This document shows, one piece after another, positions 3,262-24,276 of a stretch of 24,915 nt of DNA. The position numbers and the translations under genes were made by a program. The DNA comes from a virus. Under the pieces are notes generated by a model. It was not told the DNA's origin. It did not search any database and saw nothing but the letters and a program-made list of their open reading frames with translations. The stretch's first letter is position 1. Each line of letters starts with the position of its first letter. The stretch spans positions 1-24,915 of IMG/VR virus record IMGVR_UViG_3300032224_001359. The stretch is one strand, 5' to 3'.

Positions 3262-3301
3262 AGGTCTTGCCTCTCTCTTCCTCTCCCCGTGTGGTGGCAG
3301 C

Positions 3302-3334
3302 AAAGGGCCCTGGGTTTAACCGCCCAGGCTTTTT
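3302..3334 (+). terminator. Terminator-like hairpin in the terminase leader
   Basis: CCTGGG (3309-3314) pairs with CCCAGG (3323-3328) across an 8-nt loop. With one bulged C the stem extends into the flanking AAAGGG and CTTTTT, and T5 follows at 3330-3334. It lies between a promoter-like element and the terminase start at 3360, so it could attenuate the operon or end a short leader RNA. A pyrimidine-rich tract (3266-3289) precedes it. Confidence 0.65.
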
Positions 3335-3359
3335 GTTTTTAACTAGACTTAAGGTTAAT

Positions 3360-4949
3360 ATGGAAAACAACATTGTTCTAGAAGATGACGACGAAGAGTT
3401 CTTCCCCGTAAACGAGGATGAAGAAGACCTTGCGCCGGAAGAAGAAATTGAAGAGCTTGACGAACTATCAAAAGAGTTTGTCCGAAAGATAACTGATCGC
3501 ACAATTCAATTTATGACCGCACTTGTGGGTCATGAGTTACACCCATATCAAATGCCTCTTGCACGTCGCATTATTGAATCTGTAATTATTAATGACGGTG
3601 AAGAAATAACAGCACTTGCTGCACGTCAGTCGGGTAAGTCGGAAACTATTGCTAACACTGTAGCTACACTCATGGTGTTGTTACCTAGACTTGCAAAAAT
3701 GTACCCAGATCTTCTTGGTAAATTTAAAGAAGGTATTTGGATTGGTATGTTTGCTCCTGTTGAAGGTCAGGTAGAAACACTTTTTGGTCGTACAGTAAAT
3801 AGACTTACATCAGAAAGAGCGCTTGAGATCCTTGGCGATCCGGAGATCGACGACAGCCTAGGTAAAGTACCTGGGGTTACTCGTCAAATTAAACTTAAGA
3901 ATTCAGGCTCATCTCTTATGATGATGACAGCTAACCCTAGAGCTAAAATTGAATCTAAGTCTTTCCATTTAATTGTTATTGATGAGTGCCAGGAGGCAGA
4001 CGACTTTGTTGTATCAAAATCTATTAGCCCTATGCTTGCTTACTACTCAGGAACTATGGTTAAGACAGGCACTCCAACTACAAGTAAGAACAACTTTTAC
4101 CGCTCGATCCAATTAAACAAGCGTAGGCAGACCGGTCGCAGCTCACGCCAAAATCATTTTGAATGGGATTGGCGAGATGTAGCTAAAGTAAATGTTAATT
4201 ACGGTAAGTTTATTAAAAAAGAAATGCTTCGCATTGGGGAGGACTCTGATGAGTTCCAGATGTCGTACTCATGCAAATGGTTGCTGGAGCGAGGAATGTT
4301 CGTTACATCAGCTATTATGGACGAGCTCGGAGACACCTCACAAGAAACCGTTAAAGCTTGGCATAGAACACCAGTCGTTGTCGGAATTGACCCAGCAAGA
4401 AAACTTGACTCAACAGTAGTTACAGTTGTCTGGGTTGACTGGGATAGACCGGATGAGTTTGGTTATTACGACCACAGAGTTTTGAATTGGTTAGAGATCC
4501 AAGGCGATGACTGGGAGGATCAGTACTTCCAAATTGTTAGCTTCCTTAATAACTATGACGTACTAGCTGTTGGTATTGATGCTAACGGTGTTGGTGATGC
4601 AGTAGCCCAACGTATGAAGATTCTTCTACCAAGATCAGAGGTTCACTCAATAGGTAGTAGCCAGCCGGAGCAATCAAAGCGTTGGAAGCACCTTAAAGCT
4701 TTAATTGACCGACGTATGGTTGGTTGGCCGGCGCATGCAAAAACTCGCCGCCTTCGCACCTGGAAGCGTTTCTATCAACAAATGACAGACTTGGAGACTA
4801 AGTTTCAGGGCCCTAACTTTTTGGCACATGCCCCAGACGAAGCTCACGCCCACGACGACTACGCAGATTCTTTGGCTATTGCTTGCGCCCTAACCATGGA
4901 CTTAACCATGCCGCAGGTAGAAGTATCTTCCTCACCCTTTTTCAGATAA
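3360..4949 (+). CDS. terL: Terminase large subunit
   Basis: A 529-residue DNA-packaging motor. The ATPase half has a Q-like motif HPYQ (61-64), Walker A ARQSGKSE (88-95), Walker B IVIDE (205-209) and the coupling motif TGTPT (236-240). The RNase-H-like nuclease half has Asp344 in GIDPARKLD, Asp407 in GIDANGVGD and the Asp499-Asp500/Asp503 region (HDDYADS). It cleaves concatemers and pumps DNA through the portal. The start at 3360 is chosen because the upstream in-frame extension (a non-ATG start at 3267) would run through the leader hairpin; only a weak AAGG lies before the ATG. Residues 8-36 are unusually acidic. Length and motif order are normal. Confidence 0.96.
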   Translation: MENNIVLEDDDEEFFPVNEDEEDLAPEEEIEELDELSKEFVRKITDRTIQFMTALVGHELHPYQMPLARRIIESVIINDGEEITALAARQSGKSETIANTVATLMVLLPRLAKMYPDLLGKFKEGIWIGMFAPVEGQVETLFGRTVNRLTSERALEILGDPEIDDSLGKVPGVTRQIKLKNSGSSLMMMTANPRAKIESKSFHLIVIDECQEADDFVVSKSISPMLAYYSGTMVKTGTPTTSKNNFYRSIQLNKRRQTGRSSRQNHFEWDWRDVAKVNVNYGKFIKKEMLRIGEDSDEFQMSYSCKWLLERGMFVTSAIMDELGDTSQETVKAWHRTPVVVGIDPARKLDSTVVTVVWVDWDRPDEFGYYDHRVLNWLEIQGDDWEDQYFQIVSFLNNYDVLAVGIDANGVGDAVAQRMKILLPRSEVHSIGSSQPEQSKRWKHLKALIDRRMVGWPAHAKTRRLRTWKRFYQQMTDLETKFQGPNFLAHAPDEAHAHDDYADSLAIACALTMDLTMPQVEVSSSPFFR

Positions 4950-8544: not shown

Positions 8545-9615
8545 ATGGCATCATCCATTACAGGTACCGGCAATCTAGCCGCTGCGCCTACCGCGTATTC
8601 AGGTACCAACACACAGCTGACTCAAGCGATCCAGACTATCTGGTCCAAGGAAATTCTTTTCCAGGCCATGCCAATCCTTCGCTTTGAGCAGTTTGCAGTA
8701 AAGAAGACAGAACTAGGTGTTGCACCTGGTCTTCAAATCAACTTCATGCGTTACAACAACCTCGGCTTTGCATCTTCACTAGTTGAAGGTGTTCGCATGC
8801 AGACTAACGCACTTACAGCACAGCAATTCTCAATCACAGTATCAGAGCATGGATATGCTCTTGCTGTATCAGAGCTTTTGCTTAACGCTTCATTCGATGA
8901 CGTAATGGCTTCAGCCTCACGTCTTCTAGGTCGTAACATGGCTGTCTATCTAGATCAGCTTTCACGCGACACACTTTATGCAGCAACATCAACAATCTAC
9001 GGTGAAGACCGCTCAAACTTATCAGCTGTTAACAACTGGTACGCAGACGGTACAAAGGGCACAACACGTGCTTCTATGACAGGTAACTTCAACCTAACAC
9101 CTAAGACTGTTAAGGATGCAGTGGAGACACTAGCAACCAAGAACATCCCTCGCCTTGGTGAGACATATGTTGCTTTCATTCACCCACACCAAAGCCGTAA
9201 GCTTCGTGACAATCCAGAATTCATTGAAGTCACAAAGTACGCAGCTCCAGGTAACTTCATGCTTGGTGAGATCGGCCGTTTGTACGATACAGTATTCATT
9301 GAGACCACACAGGTTCTTAAAGTTGCTGGTGGTGCTGGTACATCTTACACAGCTGATACAGCTGTTGCTAACCCTGTAGTTGCTGCTGGTGGAGGTTACA
9401 CAACTCCAGCAACATACACAGGTAATGGTGGATCAGACCGTTACTCAGCTATCTTCATTGGAGATAACGCATTCGGTCACGCAATCTCTCTTCCAGTCGA
9501 ACTCCGCGATGGCGGTATTCTTGATTTCGGTCGTGAGCATGCACTTGCTTGGTACTCAATCTTCGGTCTTGGTCTTATTACAGATCAGTCTGTTGTTATT
9601 GCAGAAACCAACTAA
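8545..9615 (+). CDS. Major capsid protein, N4-gp56-like family
   Basis: A 356-residue HK97-fold shell subunit. The N-terminal QTIWSKEILFQAMPILRFEQF, the stretch VAPGLQINFMRYNNLG (59-74) followed by LVEGV, and the strand ITVSEHGYALAVSELLL (97-113) match N4-gp56-type capsid proteins. AFIHPHQSRKLRDNPEF (210-226) is the spine/P-domain segment typical of this group, and FGREHALAWYSIFGLGL closes the fold. A Gly/Thr/Ala-rich insertion (about 260-300) looks like a surface loop. AAGGAG (8528-8533) is 11 nt upstream. It follows the scaffold and precedes a strong GC hairpin. The codon choice, with repeated preferred codons, suits very high expression. Confidence 0.92.
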   Translation: MASSITGTGNLAAAPTAYSGTNTQLTQAIQTIWSKEILFQAMPILRFEQFAVKKTELGVAPGLQINFMRYNNLGFASSLVEGVRMQTNALTAQQFSITVSEHGYALAVSELLLNASFDDVMASASRLLGRNMAVYLDQLSRDTLYAATSTIYGEDRSNLSAVNNWYADGTKGTTRASMTGNFNLTPKTVKDAVETLATKNIPRLGETYVAFIHPHQSRKLRDNPEFIEVTKYAAPGNFMLGEIGRLYDTVFIETTQVLKVAGGAGTSYTADTAVANPVVAAGGGYTTPATYTGNGGSDRYSAIFIGDNAFGHAISLPVELRDGGILDFGREHALAWYSIFGLGLITDQSVVIAETN

Positions 9616-13116: not shown

Positions 13117-15687
13117 ATGGCTGGTTTTCTTGGTGGTGGCTCCTCTGGCTCAGGCGGAGAGATCACTTTCCCAGCAGAATTTATTGATCCGGTTACCAAG
13201 CTCCGTGTATCGGAGCCTCAAACCCTTATCGATACCGACTTTGAGTATGGTCTTCAGCCTACCAAATGGGAAACAGTTGAGCTTATTAATAACACCCCTT
13301 CTTTCTTTTCAAAGAGCGGTGATACAACTATCCCAAGCATTACAGCCATGGTTACCACAAGTACTTCTCGTGAAATTAAAGTAACTACTCAAACAGCTCA
13401 CGGCCTTGCTGTTGGTATTCCAATTAACGTAAGTGGCACTAAATCAGTGACCGCAGACGGCGCTTACATTATTAATTCTATTCCAGATAACTTTACTTTT
13501 ACTTACCTTGCTAAAGAAGCTCAAGCTACAACAGCTTCTATTTTTGACCTTTATACTTCTATTATTACTGGTGAGTTCTTCCAAGGCTCTCAAATTAAGA
13601 TATCTGACTCACAAGGTATTGTTACAGATGCAGCTTCAACTTCTGTTCTTACTGTTCAAACAGACTCACCTCACGGTTTTCAGGTAGGAACACCGTTCTA
13701 TTTCTTGAACCTTAACTCAACTGTTTCACAGCAATTTGATGCTTCTAATACTGGCGCTAAAACATTTGACTCATCAAATAGCTCTACAGCTCAAACATTT
13801 GATGGATCTAACTCTTTAACCTCTTATAACGTTGATTTTGATAATAGAGCATATGTTGGTGGAACCCAAAGCGCTACTGCTACATTTAATGCTACTAATA
13901 AAACAATTACAGTTACACATACATCTGAAAACTTTAGTGGAAAACCTATTGGAACACCTCTTTACTACAATGCACCTGCAACTTCTGGTTATTTTTTAAC
14001 TAACCCTAGAGGAATTGTTTTTCTTGCTGATAGCATAAATAATGCTCTTGGAACTACAACATCAACATTTGCTGTTTCTGCAACACCTGGAGGAACACCG
14101 CTTGATATACCTACTGCCCCTATTGGATTTTTTCAATTAGCAAACCAAGCTGTTACTTTTGCTGGAAATAATACAGATACTGTTAATCAATCAATACTAA
14201 CAGTAGTAAGCCCTGCTGGTCGTGAAATTGATGGAACAAATACTTTAGGTAGCTTATCAACAGTAAATACCTATAGCTCTACAATTATTCAACTTAACAA
14301 CGATGCCGGAACTACAATTTCATCAGGTAATTATGTTGGTGCAATGGTATTTTATACAACTACTGGAACAGCGGCTACAGGTCTTACAAACAACACTACT
14401 TATTGGGTTACTTATTATAATGAACCTGCTGGTGCCTCAGTTCCAGGGTTCTATCAAATTAAAATAGCTGCAACTCCTGGAGGAACTGATATTACAGTTT
14501 CTGGCGGAAGCGGAACCCAAAAGTTCCGTAAAATTGGCGTTTCATTAGATAAAGATGTTTGGAATTTACAGTCACATGGTTTTGTAACCGGTGATCTTGT
14601 CCGTTATACATACCCTGCTGGTGGTGCTGTAACACGTCAATCATTTACAAAAGATCATATGTTTGTGCAAAAAATTGATAATAACAATTTTTATTTACTG
14701 GACGACGTTGGTCTTAATGCTACTGGCGGAACTATTTCAACTGTAAATATTTCTGGTACAAACTATAAGGTCCACGTATTTAACGTAGACACCAACTTAA
14801 CAACTAAAACAGCTTCATTTGTTGTTTCTTCTGGGTCTGGAGTTGCGGACGTTCTTGTTGTTGCAGGTGGCGGTGGAGGTGGAACTTACGTAGGCGGCGG
14901 CGGTGGCGGCGGCGGTATGTGGGAAGGCCAGATTAACCTAACTTCTGGAACTACATATACAATCACTACTGGTGGTGGTGGTTACGGCGGCGGAAATGCT
15001 CGTGCAGACGACATGACAAATGGAGGAGATTCTTCCGTAAGTGGTGGTGGCGTTTCAATTATTGCTAAGGGTGGCGGTTACGGCGGACGTTATCCAGAAA
15101 TTGCTGGAAATGCTGGTGGTTCTGGTGGCGGTCAAGGTGGCGGTGCAAGTGGCGGTACAAACTCTGCTGCTGGTGGTGCTGCTGTTGTAGGAACTGCTAC
15201 TGGAGTAGTTAGCGGTTCGTTCTACGGATTTAGTGGTGGATACAACAACCCTAACAGCCGACCTAACAATGATACTGAAGGTCGTGGCGGTGGAGGTGCC
15301 GGTTCTTCTGCAATTAGTAATGCAACTACAGAACCTGGTGACGGCGGTGCTGGGCGTATTTCTACTATCACAGGTACTTCTTATTATTACGCAGGTGGCG
15401 GTGGTGGTGGAGCATTCTACGGTGCAGATTATGGAACTGGTCGTGGCGCTAATGGTGGTGTTGGTGGCGGAGGTATGGGTGGTGTTTTTGTAACAGGAAG
15501 CATGGGCTCACCTGGAACTGGTGGAGTAAATGTTGGTTCTACAGTAGCTATTAACTCAGGTGCTAATAGTCAAGGAATTGGTGGAACCGGTGGTTTTGCT
15601 ACCGGTGGTGGCGGAGGCGGTTGTGGTCACTCTGATCGTGGCGGTGACGGTGGATCCGGAACTGTAATTATTAGGTACAAGGCGTAA
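13117..15687 (+). CDS. Glycine-rich tail-fibre/adhesin protein
   Basis: An 856-residue protein. Residues 15-70 (ITFPAEFIDPVTKLRVSEPQ, DTDFEYGLQPTKWETVELIN) are an N-terminal anchor I associate with aquatic phage structural proteins. Residues 75-560 hold beta modules of the AHGL/PHGF/SHGFVTGDLVRY kind shared with the next gene, plus a threefold short repeat (FDASN, FDSSN, FDGSN at 205-232). Residues 573-856 are a Gly-rich domain (VLVVAGGGGGG ... GSGTVIIRYKA) of the type found on receptor-binding tips, where polyglycine-II-like packing is known in some phage adhesins. AAAGGA lies before the ATG. It is likely to bind the host surface. Confidence 0.83.
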   Translation: MAGFLGGGSSGSGGEITFPAEFIDPVTKLRVSEPQTLIDTDFEYGLQPTKWETVELINNTPSFFSKSGDTTIPSITAMVTTSTSREIKVTTQTAHGLAVGIPINVSGTKSVTADGAYIINSIPDNFTFTYLAKEAQATTASIFDLYTSIITGEFFQGSQIKISDSQGIVTDAASTSVLTVQTDSPHGFQVGTPFYFLNLNSTVSQQFDASNTGAKTFDSSNSSTAQTFDGSNSLTSYNVDFDNRAYVGGTQSATATFNATNKTITVTHTSENFSGKPIGTPLYYNAPATSGYFLTNPRGIVFLADSINNALGTTTSTFAVSATPGGTPLDIPTAPIGFFQLANQAVTFAGNNTDTVNQSILTVVSPAGREIDGTNTLGSLSTVNTYSSTIIQLNNDAGTTISSGNYVGAMVFYTTTGTAATGLTNNTTYWVTYYNEPAGASVPGFYQIKIAATPGGTDITVSGGSGTQKFRKIGVSLDKDVWNLQSHGFVTGDLVRYTYPAGGAVTRQSFTKDHMFVQKIDNNNFYLLDDVGLNATGGTISTVNISGTNYKVHVFNVDTNLTTKTASFVVSSGSGVADVLVVAGGGGGGTYVGGGGGGGGMWEGQINLTSGTTYTITTGGGGYGGGNARADDMTNGGDSSVSGGGVSIIAKGGGYGGRYPEIAGNAGGSGGGQGGGASGGTNSAAGGAAVVGTATGVVSGSFYGFSGGYNNPNSRPNNDTEGRGGGGAGSSAISNATTEPGDGGAGRISTITGTSYYYAGGGGGGAFYGADYGTGRGANGGVGGGGMGGVFVTGSMGSPGTGGVNVGSTVAINSGANSQGIGGTGGFATGGGGGGCGHSDRGGDGGSGTVIIRYKA
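13729..13812 (+). repeat. Three short FDxSN tandem units
   Basis: Codons 205-232 of the fibre gene encode QQFDASN, KTFDSSN and QTFDGSN at 10-11-residue spacing. The DNA copies (ATTTGA plus a serine/asparagine run) are related but not identical, suggesting an old internal duplication or a repeated beta turn. Confidence 0.6.
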
Positions 15688-15697: not shown

Positions 15698-18600
15698 ATG
15701 GCAACTCTTGATATCACGGCTGTTGGTGCTAGCGGTACCCATGCTCTTGCAAAAGTAAATGTTAATTTAGATGATGATTACATTTATTACAATACTACAG
15801 GTGCTGGAGAAGTTGTACCTGCTGCGTTTTCTGATGGAAGTCCTTTTATTTATAGAACAATCATCGGTGCAATTGGGGGTTTAACCTCTGGTAATTTGTA
15901 TTACATTAAAACTGTAGCTACTAAAGGTTTTGCTTTTTCTACATCTGTTGGTGGATCAGCTGTAAATATTACAAGTTCAACTTCGGGAACAACAAGTTTT
16001 AATTACCCATTTGTTTATAATAATTTCCTTAATTTAGATGCAACTTATACAAGCAATCAAGCTGTTAAATACTTTACAACCGGAACACCTATTACAGGTT
16101 TAACTTCAGGTGAAACTTATTTCTTAAAATCTTCAGGTAGTGGTTTTAGTCAAGTAAACCTTTACTCATTTACTTCACACAGCTTTACTAATGCTGGAAC
16201 CACTGGTGCAACAGCTCCAACACTTACAGCCCTTCGTACAGCATATTCTGCTGCTACTTGGACAGCATCTAGCCTTTACTTTAATCAAGGTTCTTACCAG
16301 GGTTACCAAGATTGGACAGTTCCAGCAACTGGAATTTACGAAATGACTGTTAAAGGTGCTCCTGGAAACACAGCTACAACAAACGCTCAAGGTATTGCTG
16401 GCCGTGGCGCAATCGTAAAGGGACGCATAAAGCTATATAAAAACGAAATTATTACTGTTGCTGTTGGTCAAATTGGCCTTGCTGGAGGAAACACTTCTTG
16501 GCCAGGTTCTGGCGGAGGAACTTTTGTTGTTCGTAAAAATGGAAATATTCCTTTATTTGTTGCAGCTGGTGGTGTTGCAAACAGCGATCGTACCCCTGGT
16601 GTTGATGGTTCTTTAAGCCCAAATGGCGCACAAAGCTCATTATCACAAGCTGTTGGTGTCCTTGGGCAGGGTGGTACCGGTGGTGCAGTGTCCGGTGCTG
16701 CTGGTGGTGGTTTTTACAGCGCAGGTGGTGCAACAACAGGTACTTATGTAGCTGTAACCGCAGGTGGTGGCTTTAACAATGGCCTTGTCGGTGGTACTTC
16801 AAACTCTGGTAACAACGGTGGTTTTGGTGGAGCCGGTGGATCTGAGGGTGTTTCACAAGGCGCTAACGGTGGTTCTGGAGGTTACACAGGAGGTTCGGGT
16901 ACTCTACAAGGTGGCCACTCTGGAGCTGGCGGATCTTATATCAACCCTCTTGCTACAAATGTAGCTACATCAAATGGAACTTATGATTCATTAACAGGCT
17001 TTAATGGTGTTGATATTGTAAATCTTGCTTCATTTAATACCTCAAACTCCACAGCTGGAGTAGATGTAACTTTGGTTTCAAGCACTCTCTCAGCTTACTC
17101 TGTTCACCCAACAATTGCAGACGCACAAGCTGGAACTAACGGAATTACGCTTACAGCAGCTGGTTCTCAATACCACGCTGTAACACCTATTAATTTAGAC
17201 CTAACATCTAATATTATTTATAATGCAACCGGTCACTCTTTTAACTCAGGTGATGCGGTAACTTATACATTTACAGGAACTGCCCCTACACCTTTGGCAG
17301 CTGGAACAGTTTATTATGTAAATACTATTAATAGCTACTCATACAAGCTAAGTACCACACCATCACCTAGCTTTACTGAGGTAGACTTCACATTACCTGG
17401 GTTTGCAACTGATGAAAAATTACAAAAAGTTGTTGTAAACGTAGCAACAGACACAATTAATATTCCAAGCCATGGTTTCTTGGTAAACCAGCCTGTTAAC
17501 TATCAAGTATCAGGATCTACTTTAAAATCAATTACTTCTATTAGCCGCTCTCTAACTACGGCTACAGCTACCGTTGCATCACATGGATTCACAACTGGTC
17601 AATCTGTAAATATTTCAGGATCTGCAAACTCTGATCTTGATGGTACTTATATAATTACAAATACTGGTACTAATACATTTACATATACAACTACAACAAG
17701 CGGAACATTAACTTCAATCCTTGGCGGAACAGCTAATGTTAACCACAATGTGCCTATTTCATCTATATCTAGAAGCGGAACAACAGTCACAGTAACTACC
17801 TCATACCATACATTTACTGTTGGTCGCCGAGTTTATATTACAGGTGTTACCTCCGGATCAACACCAATTCCTGGATTAAACGGTACTTTTACAATTACAG
17901 CCGTACCTAATACAACAAGCTTTACATTTACTTCTACTATATCTGGAAGCGTATCTTCTTCAGGCGGAACAGCTGCTGTTAATTTAGCAATCAATCCACT
18001 ACAAGATAATGCTACTTATTATGTAAAAACTGTTGTTGATGCTAACAATATTAAACTTAGCCAATCTTTAAATGGACCAGCTATTGACTTCCTTGACGCA
18101 GATGCCGTTACAGGAAGACCAGCTGCTGGCCTTGGGACTGCTCACTCATTCCTTTATGTAGTAGTTAACTTAACAGAAGACAGCTTATATATCCCAGGTC
18201 ATGGTTATGTTACAGGAACAAAAGTTGTTTATTCAAATGGTGGTGGAACTTCTATTGGTGGTTTAACCACAGGAACTACTTACTTTGTTTTAAAACTAGA
18301 TGATAATATTATTAAGTTAACAACCTCAATTGGCGGAGCGGCAATTAACTTAACCACTCTTGGGTCAGGAAACCACTCATTAACAACAAATGCTGTTGAT
18401 TTTGTTGCTGATCAGATTGCTATTCCAAACCATGGATTTAGCCAAGGTGAGCTTGTTCAGTATGACTCATCAGGTCAGACAGCTATTGGTGGTCTCGTCT
18501 CTGGTAATCCATATTATGTAATTTTAATTGATGGAAACAACATTGCGCTTGCTACAACATTAATTAACGCTACCGCTGGAACTAGAGTAAACCTTACAAC

Positions 18601-21600
18601 GTCTGGTGTTGGAACACATCGTATTTTGTCTCTAACTAAATCACCGGACGGTACTTATACAGTAGCAACTGTTCCTACAACAACTACATTTACTGTAACA
18701 GCAAATGGGTTTGTTCCAACAATTGTTAAAGCATTTAACCCACGCCGTGTAGTTAACCTACAACAAAATACTATTCAAATTCTATCTCATGGATTTATTA
18801 CTGGTACTAAGGTTCGCTATAGCAATGGTGGAGACTCTGACATGGGAGCTCTTACTAACAATACTGATTATTACGTAATTAACGTAAGTAAAGATTACAT
18901 TCGTCTAGCTTCCTCTGCTGAAAATGCGTCTTCCGGTGTACCAATTGTTATTTCATCTTGGGGTGGCGGTATTGCTCACTCTTTGACTACTTCTCAAATT
19001 AACGGTTTTGTTACTGGTAATGGGACCGTTACTACTGCAAGTGGGTCTACTCTTGTAAACGGTACAGGAACCGCTTTCTCAAAGATTTTGAAGGTTGGAG
19101 ATACATTCCGTATTTTCCCTACTGATACTACCTATGCTCCCACATTTGCACCCGGCGCTTTAGTTGTAAACCCAACAAACACAATTACAATTACTGCTCA
19201 CAGCTTCTTTACTGGTGATGCGGCTATTCTTGGCACAACAGGAACAGCCCCTACAGGTCTTACAAGCGGTTACTACTACTTTATTCGCAAAATTGATAAT
19301 AATACTATCAAGCTATTTAACACAGCTGCGGATGCTACAGCCAACACAAACCCAGTAACTTGGTCAAACCAGGGTACAGGAACACACTCTTTAACAAAGA
19401 ACACACCAAATGCTCCAATTATTCGTAAGCTAACAGCTATCGGATCTGATTCACAGGTAACTGTTGATCGACCATACAGCACAACTTACTCAAGTGTTTC
19501 TTATTCTTACTCAACATTTATCTATGTACGTCCGCAAGGATACTCACTACACCGACCATTTGACGGTGGAGTTGAAATGTCCGTTGGTACTAATACATCA
19601 TTTGGCCAAATCATTCGCCAAACACGTAAGTACTTCCGTTACCAATCCGGTAAAGGTCTTCAAACATCATTTGGTATTAACTTTAAGCCAACAATTGATA
19701 TTGAAAACCTACGCCGTATTAGCTCTACTACATTCCAAGCTACTACACGACGCCCTCATAGCTTAATTAGTGGTTTGAATGTAAAGATATCTGAAGCTAC
19801 AACTTCAACTGGAGCAGTAAGCACCATCTATAATGGTACTTTCCAAGTAACAGTTCAGGACTCATTTAACTTTACTTGTATTGCTACTTCTACTATTCCT
19901 ACAGGAGCAGAAGCAGTAGCTTACGGTTTCCCACAATTTAACGTACTTGCTTGGCAAAACGGCGCAATTCGTGCCGGTATGTTTGATTTCCAAAATGGTA
20001 TGTTCTGGGAGTTTGACGGTCAAAAACTTTATGCTGTTCGTAGATCATCTACCCAACAATTAGCTGGAACTGCGTCTGCTCTTCAAGGTTCTGAGTTTGT
20101 ATTCGGTACTAACACTCAATTTACAAAACAACTTGCTGCTGGTGATTTTATTGTTCTACGTGGTCAGTCATACAAAGTATCTAGTGTACTTAGCGATACT
20201 CGTATTACTATCAAACCTGAATATAAAGGTTCTTCTGGAACTGAACAAGAGTTTAATCCAGGTAATGGAACAACTGGTGTAGTTCGTACAGCTACAAGCA
20301 CCTTTGTAATTAACAGCCATGGCTTTACAAACAACCTACCTGTTGTTTACAACTCTATTGATGGAACACCAATTGGTGGTCTTATTAATGGCCGTACTTA
20401 CTATATTGATCTTACTTCATCTGGTACAGATAACAATACATTTAAGTTACGCGCTACTCCAGATTCTGGAACATCTGTAACTATTTCAGATGCTGGTGTA
20501 GGATCACCTCACTCATTTACCCCTGCAAAGAGCGGTATTATCATTACTAAAACCGTCGACACTCGTACACCACAAGAGCAATTCTCAATTGATAAGCTTG
20601 ATGGAACAGGTCCTACAGGATATAACATTGACCTTACAAAGATCCAGATGGCTTACATTGACTACTCTTGGTACGGCGCTGGAAAAATTCGCTATGGGTT
20701 CAAGACCCGTAGCGGTGAAGTTCAATATGTTCACGAGTACATCCACAACAACTACAAGCTTGAGTCATACTTCCGTTCAGGTAATTTGCCTACACGTTAC
20801 GAAGTAGCAACATTTGATACACCTACTTATATCCCATTCTTATTCCACTGGGGTACTTCGGTTATCATGGATGGTAAGTTTGACGACGATAAAGCTTACC
20901 TATTCTCACAGCAGAGCCAAACTTTATCGGTTGCCGGTACTACAGCTAAATCATTTGGATCTAAAGCTATTAATACCACACCAAACACAATTACTGTTTC
21001 TACCCACGGTTTTACAAACGGTGATGCGGTTACATTTGTTGGATTAACCGCTAATGGGCAAACTGGTTCAGATGTTCAAAACCCTACAATTACTGCTCAA
21101 GCTGCATATAGTGGTAGCGCAACTACATTGATTAATAACAGTACATTATATGTACGCGCAGTAGATGCAAATACAATTTCTTTACATCCTACTTTCTCAG
21201 ATGCAACAGCTACTGGTGGAACTAATATTATTGACTTTACCTCACAAGGTAACAGCCAATATACATATTACCTTTATCCACTAGGGTCTTCAAATAACTC
21301 ATCCGGTACTAACTATCAGCCGCTTATTTCAATTCGACTATCCCCATCAGTATCTTCTGGTTTGGTTGGAAAACTTGGTGATCGTGACGTAATTAACCGC
21401 ATGCAGTTGCGATTGCAAGAACTTGCAATTTCAAGTACATCGCTTGTAGATGTTAAGGTTCTTATTAACCCACGCCTTAATAACTTAAACTTTAACAACT
21501 CATCTGTTCCTTCGTTGACTCAGTACATTCAGCACACGCTTAATGATACCGTTTCTGGCGGAACTCAAATTTATAACTTCCGTGCAGCGGGTGGCGCTAG

Positions 21601-21781
21601 TGGTGCTGAAGGGTCAACAACTGTTGATATTAGTGAGTTGTACGAAATTGGTAACTCTATCCTTGGCGGAGACAGCGTGTTCCCTGATGGTCCAGATATT
21701 TTGACTATTGCGGTAGCTCGTTTGACTGGTAACACTACACTTTCATCAGCAAAGCTAACGTGGACTGAAGCTCAGGCGTAA
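15698..21781 (+). CDS. Giant modular virion fibre protein (2027 residues)
   Basis: Order seen: N-terminal beta modules (1-195) with GLTSGxxYxxK phrases; a Gly-rich adhesin-like domain (200-420) beginning QDWTVPATGIYEMTVKGAPG; a tandem array of about eight beta modules (498-1234), each with HGF/HSF, a YSNGG or similar loop, (I/L)xGLxxGxxYYV and a GxxHSL end; a core (1270-1520 plus 1610-1740) with HRPFDGGVEMSVG, TRKYFRYQSGKG, GMFWEFDGQKLYAVRRSS and DLTKIQMAYIDYSWYGAGKI; further modules at 1530-1607 and 1757-1856; and a C-terminal domain to 2027. The core is one I recognise from aquatic phage structural proteins of unknown exact role. It is probably a long fibre or side appendage binding host or particles. 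No catalytic motif was identified. Confidence 0.85.
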   Translation: MATLDITAVGASGTHALAKVNVNLDDDYIYYNTTGAGEVVPAAFSDGSPFIYRTIIGAIGGLTSGNLYYIKTVATKGFAFSTSVGGSAVNITSSTSGTTSFNYPFVYNNFLNLDATYTSNQAVKYFTTGTPITGLTSGETYFLKSSGSGFSQVNLYSFTSHSFTNAGTTGATAPTLTALRTAYSAATWTASSLYFNQGSYQGYQDWTVPATGIYEMTVKGAPGNTATTNAQGIAGRGAIVKGRIKLYKNEIITVAVGQIGLAGGNTSWPGSGGGTFVVRKNGNIPLFVAAGGVANSDRTPGVDGSLSPNGAQSSLSQAVGVLGQGGTGGAVSGAAGGGFYSAGGATTGTYVAVTAGGGFNNGLVGGTSNSGNNGGFGGAGGSEGVSQGANGGSGGYTGGSGTLQGGHSGAGGSYINPLATNVATSNGTYDSLTGFNGVDIVNLASFNTSNSTAGVDVTLVSSTLSAYSVHPTIADAQAGTNGITLTAAGSQYHAVTPINLDLTSNIIYNATGHSFNSGDAVTYTFTGTAPTPLAAGTVYYVNTINSYSYKLSTTPSPSFTEVDFTLPGFATDEKLQKVVVNVATDTINIPSHGFLVNQPVNYQVSGSTLKSITSISRSLTTATATVASHGFTTGQSVNISGSANSDLDGTYIITNTGTNTFTYTTTTSGTLTSILGGTANVNHNVPISSISRSGTTVTVTTSYHTFTVGRRVYITGVTSGSTPIPGLNGTFTITAVPNTTSFTFTSTISGSVSSSGGTAAVNLAINPLQDNATYYVKTVVDANNIKLSQSLNGPAIDFLDADAVTGRPAAGLGTAHSFLYVVVNLTEDSLYIPGHGYVTGTKVVYSNGGGTSIGGLTTGTTYFVLKLDDNIIKLTTSIGGAAINLTTLGSGNHSLTTNAVDFVADQIAIPNHGFSQGELVQYDSSGQTAIGGLVSGNPYYVILIDGNNIALATTLINATAGTRVNLTTSGVGTHRILSLTKSPDGTYTVATVPTTTTFTVTANGFVPTIVKAFNPRRVVNLQQNTIQILSHGFITGTKVRYSNGGDSDMGALTNNTDYYVINVSKDYIRLASSAENASSGVPIVISSWGGGIAHSLTTSQINGFVTGNGTVTTASGSTLVNGTGTAFSKILKVGDTFRIFPTDTTYAPTFAPGALVVNPTNTITITAHSFFTGDAAILGTTGTAPTGLTSGYYYFIRKIDNNTIKLFNTAADATANTNPVTWSNQGTGTHSLTKNTPNAPIIRKLTAIGSDSQVTVDRPYSTTYSSVSYSYSTFIYVRPQGYSLHRPFDGGVEMSVGTNTSFGQIIRQTRKYFRYQSGKGLQTSFGINFKPTIDIENLRRISSTTFQATTRRPHSLISGLNVKISEATTSTGAVSTIYNGTFQVTVQDSFNFTCIATSTIPTGAEAVAYGFPQFNVLAWQNGAIRAGMFDFQNGMFWEFDGQKLYAVRRSSTQQLAGTASALQGSEFVFGTNTQFTKQLAAGDFIVLRGQSYKVSSVLSDTRITIKPEYKGSSGTEQEFNPGNGTTGVVRTATSTFVINSHGFTNNLPVVYNSIDGTPIGGLINGRTYYIDLTSSGTDNNTFKLRATPDSGTSVTISDAGVGSPHSFTPAKSGIIITKTVDTRTPQEQFSIDKLDGTGPTGYNIDLTKIQMAYIDYSWYGAGKIRYGFKTRSGEVQYVHEYIHNNYKLESYFRSGNLPTRYEVATFDTPTYIPFLFHWGTSVIMDGKFDDDKAYLFSQQSQTLSVAGTTAKSFGSKAINTTPNTITVSTHGFTNGDAVTFVGLTANGQTGSDVQNPTITAQAAYSGSATTLINNSTLYVRAVDANTISLHPTFSDATATGGTNIIDFTSQGNSQYTYYLYPLGSSNNSSGTNYQPLISIRLSPSVSSGLVGKLGDRDVINRMQLRLQELAISSTSLVDVKVLINPRLNNLNFNNSSVPSLTQYIQHTLNDTVSGGTQIYNFRAAGGASGAEGSTTVDISELYEIGNSILGGDSVFPDGPDILTIAVARLTGNTTLSSAKLTWTEAQA
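17189..19399 (+). repeat. Tandem HGF-type beta-module array
   Basis: Roughly eight diverged copies of a module of about 70-80 residues (codons 498-1234), with further copies at 20285-20518 and 20966-21265. Anchors are His-Gly-Phe after an IxIPxHGF strand, a GL(T/V)SG turn, YYV and a terminal GxHSL. At least three relatives occur in the preceding gene. Confidence 0.8.
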
Positions 21782-21790: not shown

Positions 21791-22309
21791 ATGCCAATCA
21801 ATCGTCTTGGAATTCAAAACCCAGCAGCAAATACGGTTACTGGGCTTTATGCAGCTACCTACTCCACATTAGCTTCTGTTATTGTTTCTAACAAATCAAC
21901 AAGTACAGCAGCTATACCAACTGTTGATATATATGTAGCTCCTTTAGGATCTACATCTAATGGTTATGGTTATATTGTTGCCAATTTATCAATAGGTGCT
22001 GGACAATCATTTGAAACATTTAAATTTGCAATTAATGCTACAGATACGGTGTACGTTAAAGCATCTACAGCAAATGTATCTTTTTCAATTTATGGTTTAA
22101 TTCAAGCTGATGATTATAGTGCTGGAGACTACCCAACTGTATTTACAAATAAAACTATTAATGGTAATTTTAATACTATTACACTTGAGGCTAACTCAAC
22201 AGCTGCGCGTCCAGCCTCTGCTGCAAATGGCTATTTAAGATATAATACAGAATTAAATGCTTTAGAGGTTAAAACTCCAACGGGTTGGAAGATTGTGAGC
22301 GCCAGCTAA
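21791..22309 (+). CDS. Small fibre/appendage protein, paralogue of the next gene
   Basis: A 172-residue beta-rich protein. Residues 1-104 (MPINRLGIQNPAAN ... GAGQSFETFKFAIN) are clearly related to residues 1-101 of the next gene product. Residues 115-172 (TNKTINGNFNTI, ARPASAANGYLRYNTELNAL, GWKIV) form a C-terminal segment found at the ends of many phage fibre proteins. A short GGGGTAAG precedes the ATG. The stop overlaps the next start as TAATG. It is likely a small virion adhesin or fibre cap; the exact site on the particle is unknown. Confidence 0.75.
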   Translation: MPINRLGIQNPAANTVTGLYAATYSTLASVIVSNKSTSTAAIPTVDIYVAPLGSTSNGYGYIVANLSIGAGQSFETFKFAINATDTVYVKASTANVSFSIYGLIQADDYSAGDYPTVFTNKTINGNFNTITLEANSTAARPASAANGYLRYNTELNALEVKTPTGWKIVSAS

Positions 22310-23187
22310 TGCCAGTAAAACGCCTTGCTATTGCTAACCCATCAGCTAACTTACAATCTACTTTATATACAGCTGATCAAGCATATATTGCTTCTGTAGT
22401 TGCTGCAAATAAAAGCGCTAACCCAATTACTGTAGATATTGCGGTAATTCCTTCTGGTGAAACTTTAGCTACAGCTGGTTATATTGTTGACAATATATCA
22501 ATTTCTGGTGGTCAGTCTTTTGAAACATTTAAATTTGCGTTAAACACCGGTGATGTTATAAGTGTGTTTTCAAATTCCGCGTATGCTTCTTTTTTGGCAA
22601 CTGGTTTATACGAGACTACAGGACGGCAAGTTGTTAGTTACCAAAGTACTACACCTGTTTACCCTCAAGTAGGAGATATTTGGATTAACTCCTCTACTCA
22701 AACTACATCATTTTGGTCAGGATCAGCCTGGAATACTTCTGTAAGTGTTGGTCCAACTGGGCCTACGGGCGCTGCTGGAACAAACGGATCTACGGGACCT
22801 ACTGGTGCTACTGGACCTACCGGACCTTCTGGAGGGCCTACAGGGCCTACCGGAGCTACTGGAACTAATGGCCTTACAATTGTTGATACGTTTAACGTAG
22901 TAAACAGCGGAACTGTTGCTTATGTTATTAATGGATCAAGCAACCCTACATTAACCGTAGTTCGTGGTTACTCTTATTTCTTTACTATTAATACCTCTGG
23001 AAGTAATTTCTTCCTTAAAACCGCCGCTGGAATAGGTTTATCTAATCAATATGGCCTTGGAGTAACTAATAATGGAGCCGCAACAGGCGGTATCCTTTGG
23101 ACTGTAGATGCTGGAGCACCTAGCACCTTGTATTATCAATCACAGCAAAACTCTGGACAGACAGGTACTATTAACGTAATCGGATAA
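22309..23187 (+). CDS. Fibre protein with collagen stretch and cupredoxin-like tip
   Basis: A 292-residue protein from the ATG at 22309, which overlaps the previous stop. An upstream in-frame TTG is less likely. Residues 1-105 are the paralogous N-domain. Residues 108-147 are a beta module (VGDIWINSSTQTTSFWSGSAW) like those in the collagen fibre. Residues 148-187 are GPT/GAT triplets. Residues 190-292 resemble a cupredoxin-like domain of aquatic phage fibres (PTLTVVRGYSYFFTIN, GVTNNG, LYYQSQQNSGQTGTINV). Positions where related domains carry Cys, His and Met are Ser, Asn and Gln here, so copper binding is unlikely. The tip may bind a receptor. Confidence 0.75.
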   Translation: MPVKRLAIANPSANLQSTLYTADQAYIASVVAANKSANPITVDIAVIPSGETLATAGYIVDNISISGGQSFETFKFALNTGDVISVFSNSAYASFLATGLYETTGRQVVSYQSTTPVYPQVGDIWINSSTQTTSFWSGSAWNTSVSVGPTGPTGAAGTNGSTGPTGATGPTGPSGGPTGPTGATGTNGLTIVDTFNVVNSGTVAYVINGSSNPTLTVVRGYSYFFTINTSGSNFFLKTAAGIGLSNQYGLGVTNNGAATGGILWTVDAGAPSTLYYQSQQNSGQTGTINVIG

Positions 23188-23199
23188 GAAAGTCGGAGC

Positions 23200-24276
23200 A
23201 TGAAAGTAGCTGTTTACTCAATAGCGCTTAACGAAGAGAAGTTTGTAGAACGGTGGTATGAATGTGCCAAAGAAGCTGATTATTTACTTATTGCTGACAC
23301 TGGTTCTAGCGACCGCACTATCGAGCTTGCTAAGTCTCTTGGTATTAATGTAGTTGAAATTTCAATTAAACCGTGGAGGTTTGATGATGCTCGTAATGCT
23401 AGCCTCGCTGTTATCCCTGGGGATATTGATTACTGTATTGCTCTGGATCTCGACGAAGTATTAGTCCCAGGTTGGCGCCAACATTTAGAGTTTGCCTACA
23501 AAAACAAATGGACTCGTCCTCGGTATTTATTTACCACCAGTTGGAACCCAGACGGATCTCCTGGACTTCAATTTAGCGGTATCCGTATCCACGCTCGTCA
23601 AGGCTATCGTTGGATCTATCCAATCCACGAAGTGCCAGACCCTTATGGAGAGCCTCCTACTGAAGGGTGGATTGAGTTACAAGCTGAGCACCACCCAGAT
23701 GAAACAAAGTCTCGTGGGCAATACCTACCGCTCCTTGAAACCGCTGCTCGTGAAAACCCGCTTGATGATCGATGCGCTTTTTATTATGGACGCGAGCTTT
23801 ACTTTCATAACAAGTACCCGGAAGCGGCCACAGAGTTTAAACGTTATCTATCTTTAGAAAGCGCCAAGTGGCTACCCCAAAAAGCAGCAGCCCACAGATA
23901 CCTTGCTCTTGTTGACCCAGATAACGCGGAAAGCTGGAACCTAAGTGCGATCACTCAAGACCCAACCCGCCGTGAAAACTATATACAAACCGCGGAGTAT
24001 TACTACAACAACCAACGATGGGAAGAGTGTCTTAAGTACGCCGAGCTTGCGTTAACTATTACAGAAAAGCCTTTAGATTATTTCTGTGAGCCTTGGGCTT
24101 GGGATTTCCGCGGTTATGACTACGCCGCTATTGCCGCTTTCTGGCTAGGTAAAACCGAGCTTGCCCTTGAGTATGGGGAAAAAGCCTTAGAGGTAACCCC
24201 GACAGATGAGCGTTTACAGCGTAACCTTGAGTTCTATAAAGAAAAGGATGGGACAAATGGATCAGACTCTATTTGA
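23200..24276 (+). CDS. GT2-family glycosyltransferase with C-terminal TPR-like helices
   Basis: A 358-residue protein. Residues 1-100 form a GT-A fold: VYSIALNEEKFVERWYE, ADTGSSDRT (32-40) for nucleotide binding, and the metal-binding DxD at 83-85 within ALDLDEV. HEVPDP (143-148) is near the acceptor site. Residues 185-345 are helical repeats of TPR type (YYGRELYFHNKYPEAATEF, AEYYYNNQRWEECLKYAELAL, AAFWLGKTELALEYGEKAL), likely the acceptor-recruiting part. It should transfer a sugar from a nucleotide donor; acceptor unknown, possibly a virion protein or host glycan. A GGAG only one base from the ATG is badly spaced, so the start is slightly uncertain. Confidence 0.87.
   Translation: MKVAVYSIALNEEKFVERWYECAKEADYLLIADTGSSDRTIELAKSLGINVVEISIKPWRFDDARNASLAVIPGDIDYCIALDLDEVLVPGWRQHLEFAYKNKWTRPRYLFTTSWNPDGSPGLQFSGIRIHARQGYRWIYPIHEVPDPYGEPPTEGWIELQAEHHPDETKSRGQYLPLLETAARENPLDDRCAFYYGRELYFHNKYPEAATEFKRYLSLESAKWLPQKAAAHRYLALVDPDNAESWNLSAITQDPTRRENYIQTAEYYYNNQRWEECLKYAELALTITEKPLDYFCEPWAWDFRGYDYAAIAAFWLGKTELALEYGEKALEVTPTDERLQRNLEFYKEKDGTNGSDSI

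Follow-up and report, generated by a model that had tools for sequence, protein, structure and literature searches.

The reading frame of gene 2, in a window that is a complete IMG/VR record of 24,915 bases, probably encodes the larger chain of a host-recognition adhesin that is made from two genes, namely a tail-fibre or baseplate-associated virion protein. We hold with good confidence that it is built on an old core scaffold that was split between two genes in one clade, that it carries a glycine-rich head, as the partner chain does, and that it has grown by the insertion of domains into loops; the parts of this reading that we infer are its presence in the virion, host binding, the distal position of the head and the phylum of the host. 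More tentatively, and as a possibility that we would not yet favour, the host-binding head of this clade may be a complete homologue of the ALK/LTK domain, sharing common descent with animal ALK and gained together with a gene split that left both chains capped, with later growth by recursive loop insertion into a preferred loop.

The frame opens with ATG and is uninterrupted, confirming the 2027-residue protein of the initial annotation. Whole-ORF scans against Pfam and NCBIfam returned nothing useful, and no kinase family match was found anywhere in the 2027 residues by Pfam, NCBIfam and PHROG profile scans. The core of the protein had been recognised as cyanophage-like, and this was borne out by its match to phrog_5838, a family of virion structural proteins (profile E value 5.7e-126), and by about 40-46% identity to cyanophage virion proteins across the core. 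The whole protein retrieved 118 phage records by tblastn, mostly Synechococcus phages, and the core alone retrieved at least 564 viral-contig stretches. Homologues in other aquatic phages, which the annotation had named as a test of its proposal, are therefore found in cyanophages and in many other aquatic viruses. The most conserved core stretches have a pLDDT of only about 25-45 in the predicted model; a PDB search with this core model, which is of low quality in the conserved parts, found no convincing match to the full fold.

The layout of gene 2 was determined using profiles that we built for two module types, A (the HGF module) and B (FCCH-like), and is given in Table 1. Matches to the A profile in gene 2 score about 30-91 bits. 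The glycine-rich domain lies ahead of the array as originally described, and the count of eight array modules holds, with six A and two B modules between this domain and the core; the HGF module noted within the core was also recovered as an A module. The earlier reading had missed a further A module that interrupts the core, the presence of two module types with a B pair inside one A module, the probable position of the glycine-rich domain within an A module, its ALK/LTK type, and the location of the N-terminal part of the core protein in the upstream gene. Segment C2 of the core itself contains an ancestral FCCH-like B module at residues 1342-1401. A short piece at residues 980-1004 resembles the C-terminal half of a B module, and no N-terminal partner was found for it.

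Table 1. Features of the adhesin cassette and of gene 2
Feature	Residues (aa)	Positions	Strand	Basis
Gene 1 of cassette	856	13117..15687	+	N-terminal 'TLIDTDFEYGLQPTKWE' part; C-terminal Gly_rich_2-like domain, 564-803
Gene 2, putative modular adhesin-type virion protein	2027	15698..21781	+	reading frame, family match
Degenerate type-A module	42-98	15821..15991	+	A profile
N-terminal half of A module hosting glycine-rich domain	~108-155	16019..16162	+	A profile, half-joining, model
ALK/LTK-type glycine-rich domain (TNF-like and glycine-rich parts)	156-462	16163..17083	+	predicted structure, profiles
C-terminal half of that host A module	~464-497	17087..17188	+	A profile, shuffle test, model
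Type-A module	500-570	17195..17407	+	A profile
N-terminal half of A module split by B pair	579-608	17432..17521	+	A profile, alignment
Nested FCCH-like type-B module 1	613-686	17534..17755	+	B profile, alignment, structure match
Nested FCCH-like type-B module 2	691-764	17768..17989	+	B profile, alignment, structure match
C-terminal half of B-split A module	766-812	17993..18133	+	A profile, half-joining
Type-A module	822-893	18161..18376	+	A profile
Type-A module	898-974	18389..18619	+	A profile
Type-A module	1018-1091	18749..18970	+	A profile
First half of 'GTGTxF..L..GD' barrel, resuming at ~1240	1097-1150	18986..19147	+	profile, structure match
Type-A module nested in 'GTGTxF..L..GD' barrel	1159-1230	19172..19387	+	A profile, structure match
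Core segment C2 (barrel end, HRPFDGG..)	1240-1522	19415..20263	+	phrog_5838 profile, structure match
Type-A module inserted in core (initially placed at 1530-1607)	1528-1603	20279..20506	+	A profile, locus comparison, structure match
Core segment C3 (DYSWYGAGKI..)	1612-1755	20531..20962	+	profiles
Second type-A module inserted in core	1757-1853	20966..21256	+	A profile
Core segment C4 to conserved C-terminus (W.EAQA)	1850-2027	21245..21778	+	profile
Small conserved cassette gene	172	21791..22309	+	gene-order comparison
Collagen-repeat fibre-type gene		22285..23187	+	N-terminal domain common to 172-aa protein
Glycosyltransferase with TPR, phrog_13126, conserved cassette member		23200..24276	+	profile match, gene order

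The N-terminal TDFEYG.Q.TKWE block of phrog_5838 is absent from the 2027-residue chain and present in gene 1, and the 'TLIDTDFEYGLQPTKWE' part of gene 1 belongs to the same chain as the core in intact relatives. Among loci with a complete core, 61 carry the N-terminal block in a separate upstream ORF together with an A insertion between C2 and C3, and 67 have block and core in one ORF and lack that insertion; in 10 further loci the insertion is present and the block falls outside the view, mostly with a contig end just upstream. These counts are of loci: the window is entered twice (as itself and as L004), L006 and L084 come from a single contig, and there are near-identical contigs, which makes the number of independent sequences smaller. 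On the core tree, which was built quickly and has some long branches beyond this clade, the split type forms a single clade and requires one change. The order gene 1, gene 2, 172-residue gene and glycosyltransferase is kept across relatives. All complete split-type core proteins contain an ALK-type domain, apart from L049, in which a break divides the gene between two ORFs; the domain is absent from all 70 intact ORFs. The C-terminal end of gene 1 is a Gly_rich_2-like domain in the window, and in several relatives an ALK-type domain is found there.

The core insertion occupies the same place in 71 of 71 measured loci of the clade and is absent from 67 of 67 intact relatives. It is thus old and fixed in the clade, which contradicts the earlier suggestion that an insertion into the conserved core implies active growth by duplication. 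A module layout fixed in all relatives had been named as an outcome that would tell against that suggestion; the core site is indeed fixed in the clade, but the B insertions in loops of A modules vary. Relatives have 0, 1, 2 or about 10 nested B copies. At the site used in the window a B pair is shared with its two nearest relatives, a single B is found in L008 and L009, and other close relatives have none; the pattern takes two changes on the tree, and two gains or a gain and a loss fit it alike. Total length in the clade runs from 1862 to 2897 residues.

We propose that the C2-C3-C4 core, with the N-terminal part now in gene 1, represents an old virion scaffold of many aquatic phages. In one clade, apparently of actinobacterial phages, the ancestral protein was split in two within its variable middle, and each of the two chains bears a glycine-rich head where the new end arose. 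The head of gene 2 would bind the host surface, as has been proposed for the glycine-rich receptor-binding tips of the Pam3 and S16 fibres (PMC9608196), while length and shape would change mainly through small barrels inserted in loops rather than through a longer simple tandem array. In intact relatives the variable modules stand between conserved blocks at the two ends. A chain leaving the virion at one end and returning at the other would place the middle at the tip, where a split capped by glycine-rich domains on both new ends would display two heads; this picture is a hypothesis that we consider conceivable and would not lean towards.

An improbable alternative is that gene 2 encodes a structural scaffold of the tail or baseplate, or a head decoration, with no role as a receptor-binding protein, in which the modules and the glycine-rich domain set only size and stiffness. 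The strict conservation of the core would agree with this, as would the matches of the repeats to the baseplate wedge and the PHROGs category of phrog_5838, which is 'head and packaging' and not tail. However, the neighbouring genes encode a collagen-type fibre and a glycosyltransferase, the modular variability is typical of adhesins, and glycine-rich heads are the very elements proposed as receptor-binding tips in Pam3 and S16. In addition, the S-PM2 homologue p173, annotated as a virion structural protein, lies two genes from p175, which belongs to a block described as potential adhesin components and of which an allele was swept under host selection (PMC9910659). We therefore retain the adhesin reading, under which the ALK-like domain is, by analogy with these fibres, probably used in host-cell recognition.

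The glycine-rich domain gave an AlphaFold2 model with a mean pLDDT of 83. In Foldseek the extracellular domains of ALK and LTK were the top matches, far ahead of others (E 4e-11), and alignment of the predicted model to human ALK with VIA-align gave a Z score of 31.8, with 2.6 Å over 252 residues and 29% identity; nematode ALK scored 21.8. A profile of 46 relatives matched LTK (E 5e-13) and ALK (E about 1e-11). The domain surfaced only through structure, PDB-profile and domain-level scans. Against PF12810 (ALK_LTK_GRD) the window scores 24.3 bits, just under the 24.5-bit Pfam cut-off, and 17 of the 46 relatives reach E<=0.01, the best of them 3.9e-9; the predicted model contains both the TNF-like and the glycine-rich part of the PF12810 fold. 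By predicted fold and sequence similarity, the domain is a complete ALK/LTK-type domain.

It could be argued that this resemblance is compositional, glycine-rich sequences being forced into a similar predicted lattice with no homology. The high glycine content, the use of a predicted rather than a solved model and the Pfam score below the cut-off all speak for this reading, but we consider it very unlikely, given that the glycine-poor TNF-like part matches alone (query residues 9-69; domain i-E value 4.4e-7, bias 0.3) and that the Z score to human ALK is far above those to the Pam3 fibre (8.2) and a Bxb1 tail-tip chain (7.6). The window sequence by itself matches nematode ALK at E 0.0018, within the TNF-like part. 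For the Pam3 fibre, too, a TNF-like domain has been described, along with a comparison to C. elegans ALK (PMC9608196). A relation between phage glycine-rich tips and ALK is thus already known, and the novelty lies in how complete the match is and in the setting of the domain; searches of the open-access literature found no ALK-type domain described for this group of phages, and a pattern-limited scan of bacterial genomes found no close relatives of the domain. Viral structure matches include other phage proteins named 'receptor protein-tyrosine kinase', a recurrent misnaming which the resemblance explains. The finding ties the ALK ligand-binding domain to a putative host-recognition domain of phages, and the history of this family can be tested with many phage sequences.

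The architecture of gene 2 is nested, with A modules inside core barrels and two B modules inside one A module. Taken separately, the A halves that flank the B pair score 36.9 and 34.3 bits; when they are joined at the best joint the score is 82.5 bits, and close relatives have an uninterrupted A module at this point. In the alignment the B pair occupies precisely the loop that connects the 'V.Y' strand of A to its 'IAPL' stretch. Elsewhere among relatives, B-type inserts were observed at position 685 of L015 (about 10) and at 1019, 1038 and 1674 (one each). The sites at 603, 685 and 1019 belong to three separate A modules and all map to positions 25-31 of the A model, the same loop, with one of the remaining sites at model position 47 and one near 60. 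One loop of A thus takes up B inserts in at least three different modules. For the A modules nested in the core, matches to phage barrels span the insert (about 70 residues aligned across model residues 438-606, and 74 across 90-258), at modest Z scores of 6-7.5. The glycine-rich domain was probably also inserted in an A module, the least certain of the nestings: the C-terminal half of the host module scores about 7 bits, an A C-terminal half follows the domain in 39 of 65 proteins but in only 4 of 650 shuffles, and the predicted model has a compatible strand order. Together these observations suggest a concrete growth rule for giant phage adhesins, that of loop insertion rather than tandem duplication alone.

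The B modules share the barrel fold of E1 FCCH and endosialidase domains, with a Z score of 10.0 (2.0 Å over 77 residues) for the core copy and 10.5 (1.7 Å over 77 residues) for the nested copies. The model of the nested pair may be strand-swapped between copies, since the match spans residues 607-764 for only about 77 residues. The first B module scores 17.2 bits against the 35-bit cut-off of PF12195, and for PF16190 only phage DSL-LC01 passes (29.8 against 29.5 bits). We found no report of FCCH domains in phage tails in the open-access literature.

Orthologous A modules are 41-61% identical and paralogues within the protein 22-39%, at each of the eight positions compared. The two B modules of the window are 46% alike, as against 58-68% for their orthologues in L005 and L006. 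A DNA repeat search found no long near-identical repeat, the best being about 74% over about 50 nt, and recent tandem duplication is not supported by these two lines of comparison. With 37%, the A module at 579 comes closest to the A insert in the core, a likeness insufficient to name the source of that insert. The initial model, in which neighbouring HGF modules are now being duplicated into the array and the core, is very unlikely: the modules are homologous copies, lengths in the clade differ widely and a B pair in DSL-LC01 that is 65% alike forms a partial exception, but the window holds no recently duplicated pair, paralogues are less alike than orthologues and the core insertion is fixed.

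The major capsid protein and TerL of the window are 73% and 54% identical, respectively, to those of Streptomyces phages such as LuckySocke and BRock, which agrees with the actinophage backbone first proposed, and the host of the window phage is apparently actinobacterial. LuckySocke has an annotated tail sheath, and the adhesin profiles had no match in the 41-kb stretch of it that was searched. Head genes of the window type accompany the cassette in some groups only: the cassette is present, and a window-type MCP or TerL absent, in DSL-LC01 (complete, 129 kb) and in four more records (118-135 kb). The predicted hosts of DSL-LC01 are Actinomycetia (PMC10611076). The cassette thus rides on at least two head types and one adhesin cassette occurs on unrelated phage heads, which makes the suggested exchange among distant aquatic phages well supported.

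Among known systems, the closest is the DSL-LC01 protein WJZ48558.1 (2853 aa, annotated 'ALK tyrosine kinase receptor'), which is 54% identical to the window protein and shares its gene order, split, glycine-rich domain, A array, core and both core insertions; it differs in having about 10 further B modules in another A module, more B in other A modules, and different head genes. Cyanophage proteins of T4-GC 863/phrog_5838 (S-BM3 WDS61269, S-PM2 p173) have the same N-terminal block, C2, C3, C4 and A and/or B modules, but are encoded by one intact gene, unlike the two of the window, and lack the ALK-type domain and the A module between C2 and C3. The E1 FCCH (PF16190) and endosialidase beta-barrel (PF12195) domains have the fold and motif of the B modules, which in the window are serial loop inserts with sequence scores below the Pfam cut-offs. 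Pam3 gp24 and phage S16 gp38 have in common with the window protein a glycine-rich receptor-tip architecture, but are short fibre or tip proteins unlike this giant chain, and Pam3 is structurally much farther from the window domain than is human ALK. With the ALK/LTK receptor tyrosine kinases (PF12810) the domain shares a full-length predicted fold match and sequence similarity, whereas the phage protein is without a kinase domain and its glycine-rich domain is embedded in an array of phage modules.

The major capsid protein and terminase of the window share 73% and 54% identity, respectively, with those of the Streptomyces phages LuckySocke and BRock, and a tail sheath is annotated in LuckySocke. 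In a close relative (L008), one TAG was observed inside the matched stretch of the terminase frame, which may reflect a sequencing error or recoding.

Core proteins range in size from 419 aa (HMO-2011 gp65) to as many as 3400 aa (locus L103), and the former contains a minimal core comprising an N-terminal trace, part of block C2, and C3. Three loci carry a second copy of the core protein, of the intact type with the N-terminal block and core in one ORF, on the same contig. These copies, like the cyanophage homologue S-PM2 p173, have the interruption of block C3 at another position. Locus L049 was observed to contain two ORFs in place of the single big gene, for which a frameshift, an insertion or an assembly error may be responsible.

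Positions of the features described
Sequence	Positions	Feature
Window	3267-4949	Terminase
Window	8545-9615	Major capsid protein
Window	about 18620-18742 (aa 975-1015)	C-half of B module
Window	21791-22309	172-aa protein
Window	22285-23187	Collagen-repeat protein
L008	G001:C1:94645-96246	Terminase frame with TAG
L048	8126-11005 (aa 661-943)	Gene 1 (ALK-type domain)
L049	11594-13936; 14457-17198	Two ORFs
L057	15689-19009	Second core-protein copy
L098, L100	11777-17530	Second core-protein copy
L166	4572-5831	HMO-2011 gp65
DSL-LC01 (OQ999401, L001)	24985-26556	Tryptophan halogenase

Within the big protein, we identified the C-half of a B (FCCH-like) module, DGTYTVATVPTTTTFTV, to which no identifiable N-half belongs; this lone half is seemingly also present in cyanophage homologues.

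The 172-aa gene directly follows the big gene, a conserved position, and its product shares an N-terminal domain with the collagen-repeat protein (motif MP.(N/K)RL.I.NP.AN ... GQSFETFKFA). In the Actinomycetia phage DSL-LC01, an annotated tryptophan halogenase adjoins the cassette glycosyltransferase.

The glycine-rich heads at the end of gene 1, the ORF upstream of the big gene, seem to be swapped: the window has a Gly_rich_2-like domain, whereas about 18 relatives, L048 for example, have a glycine-rich domain of the ALK type at this end.
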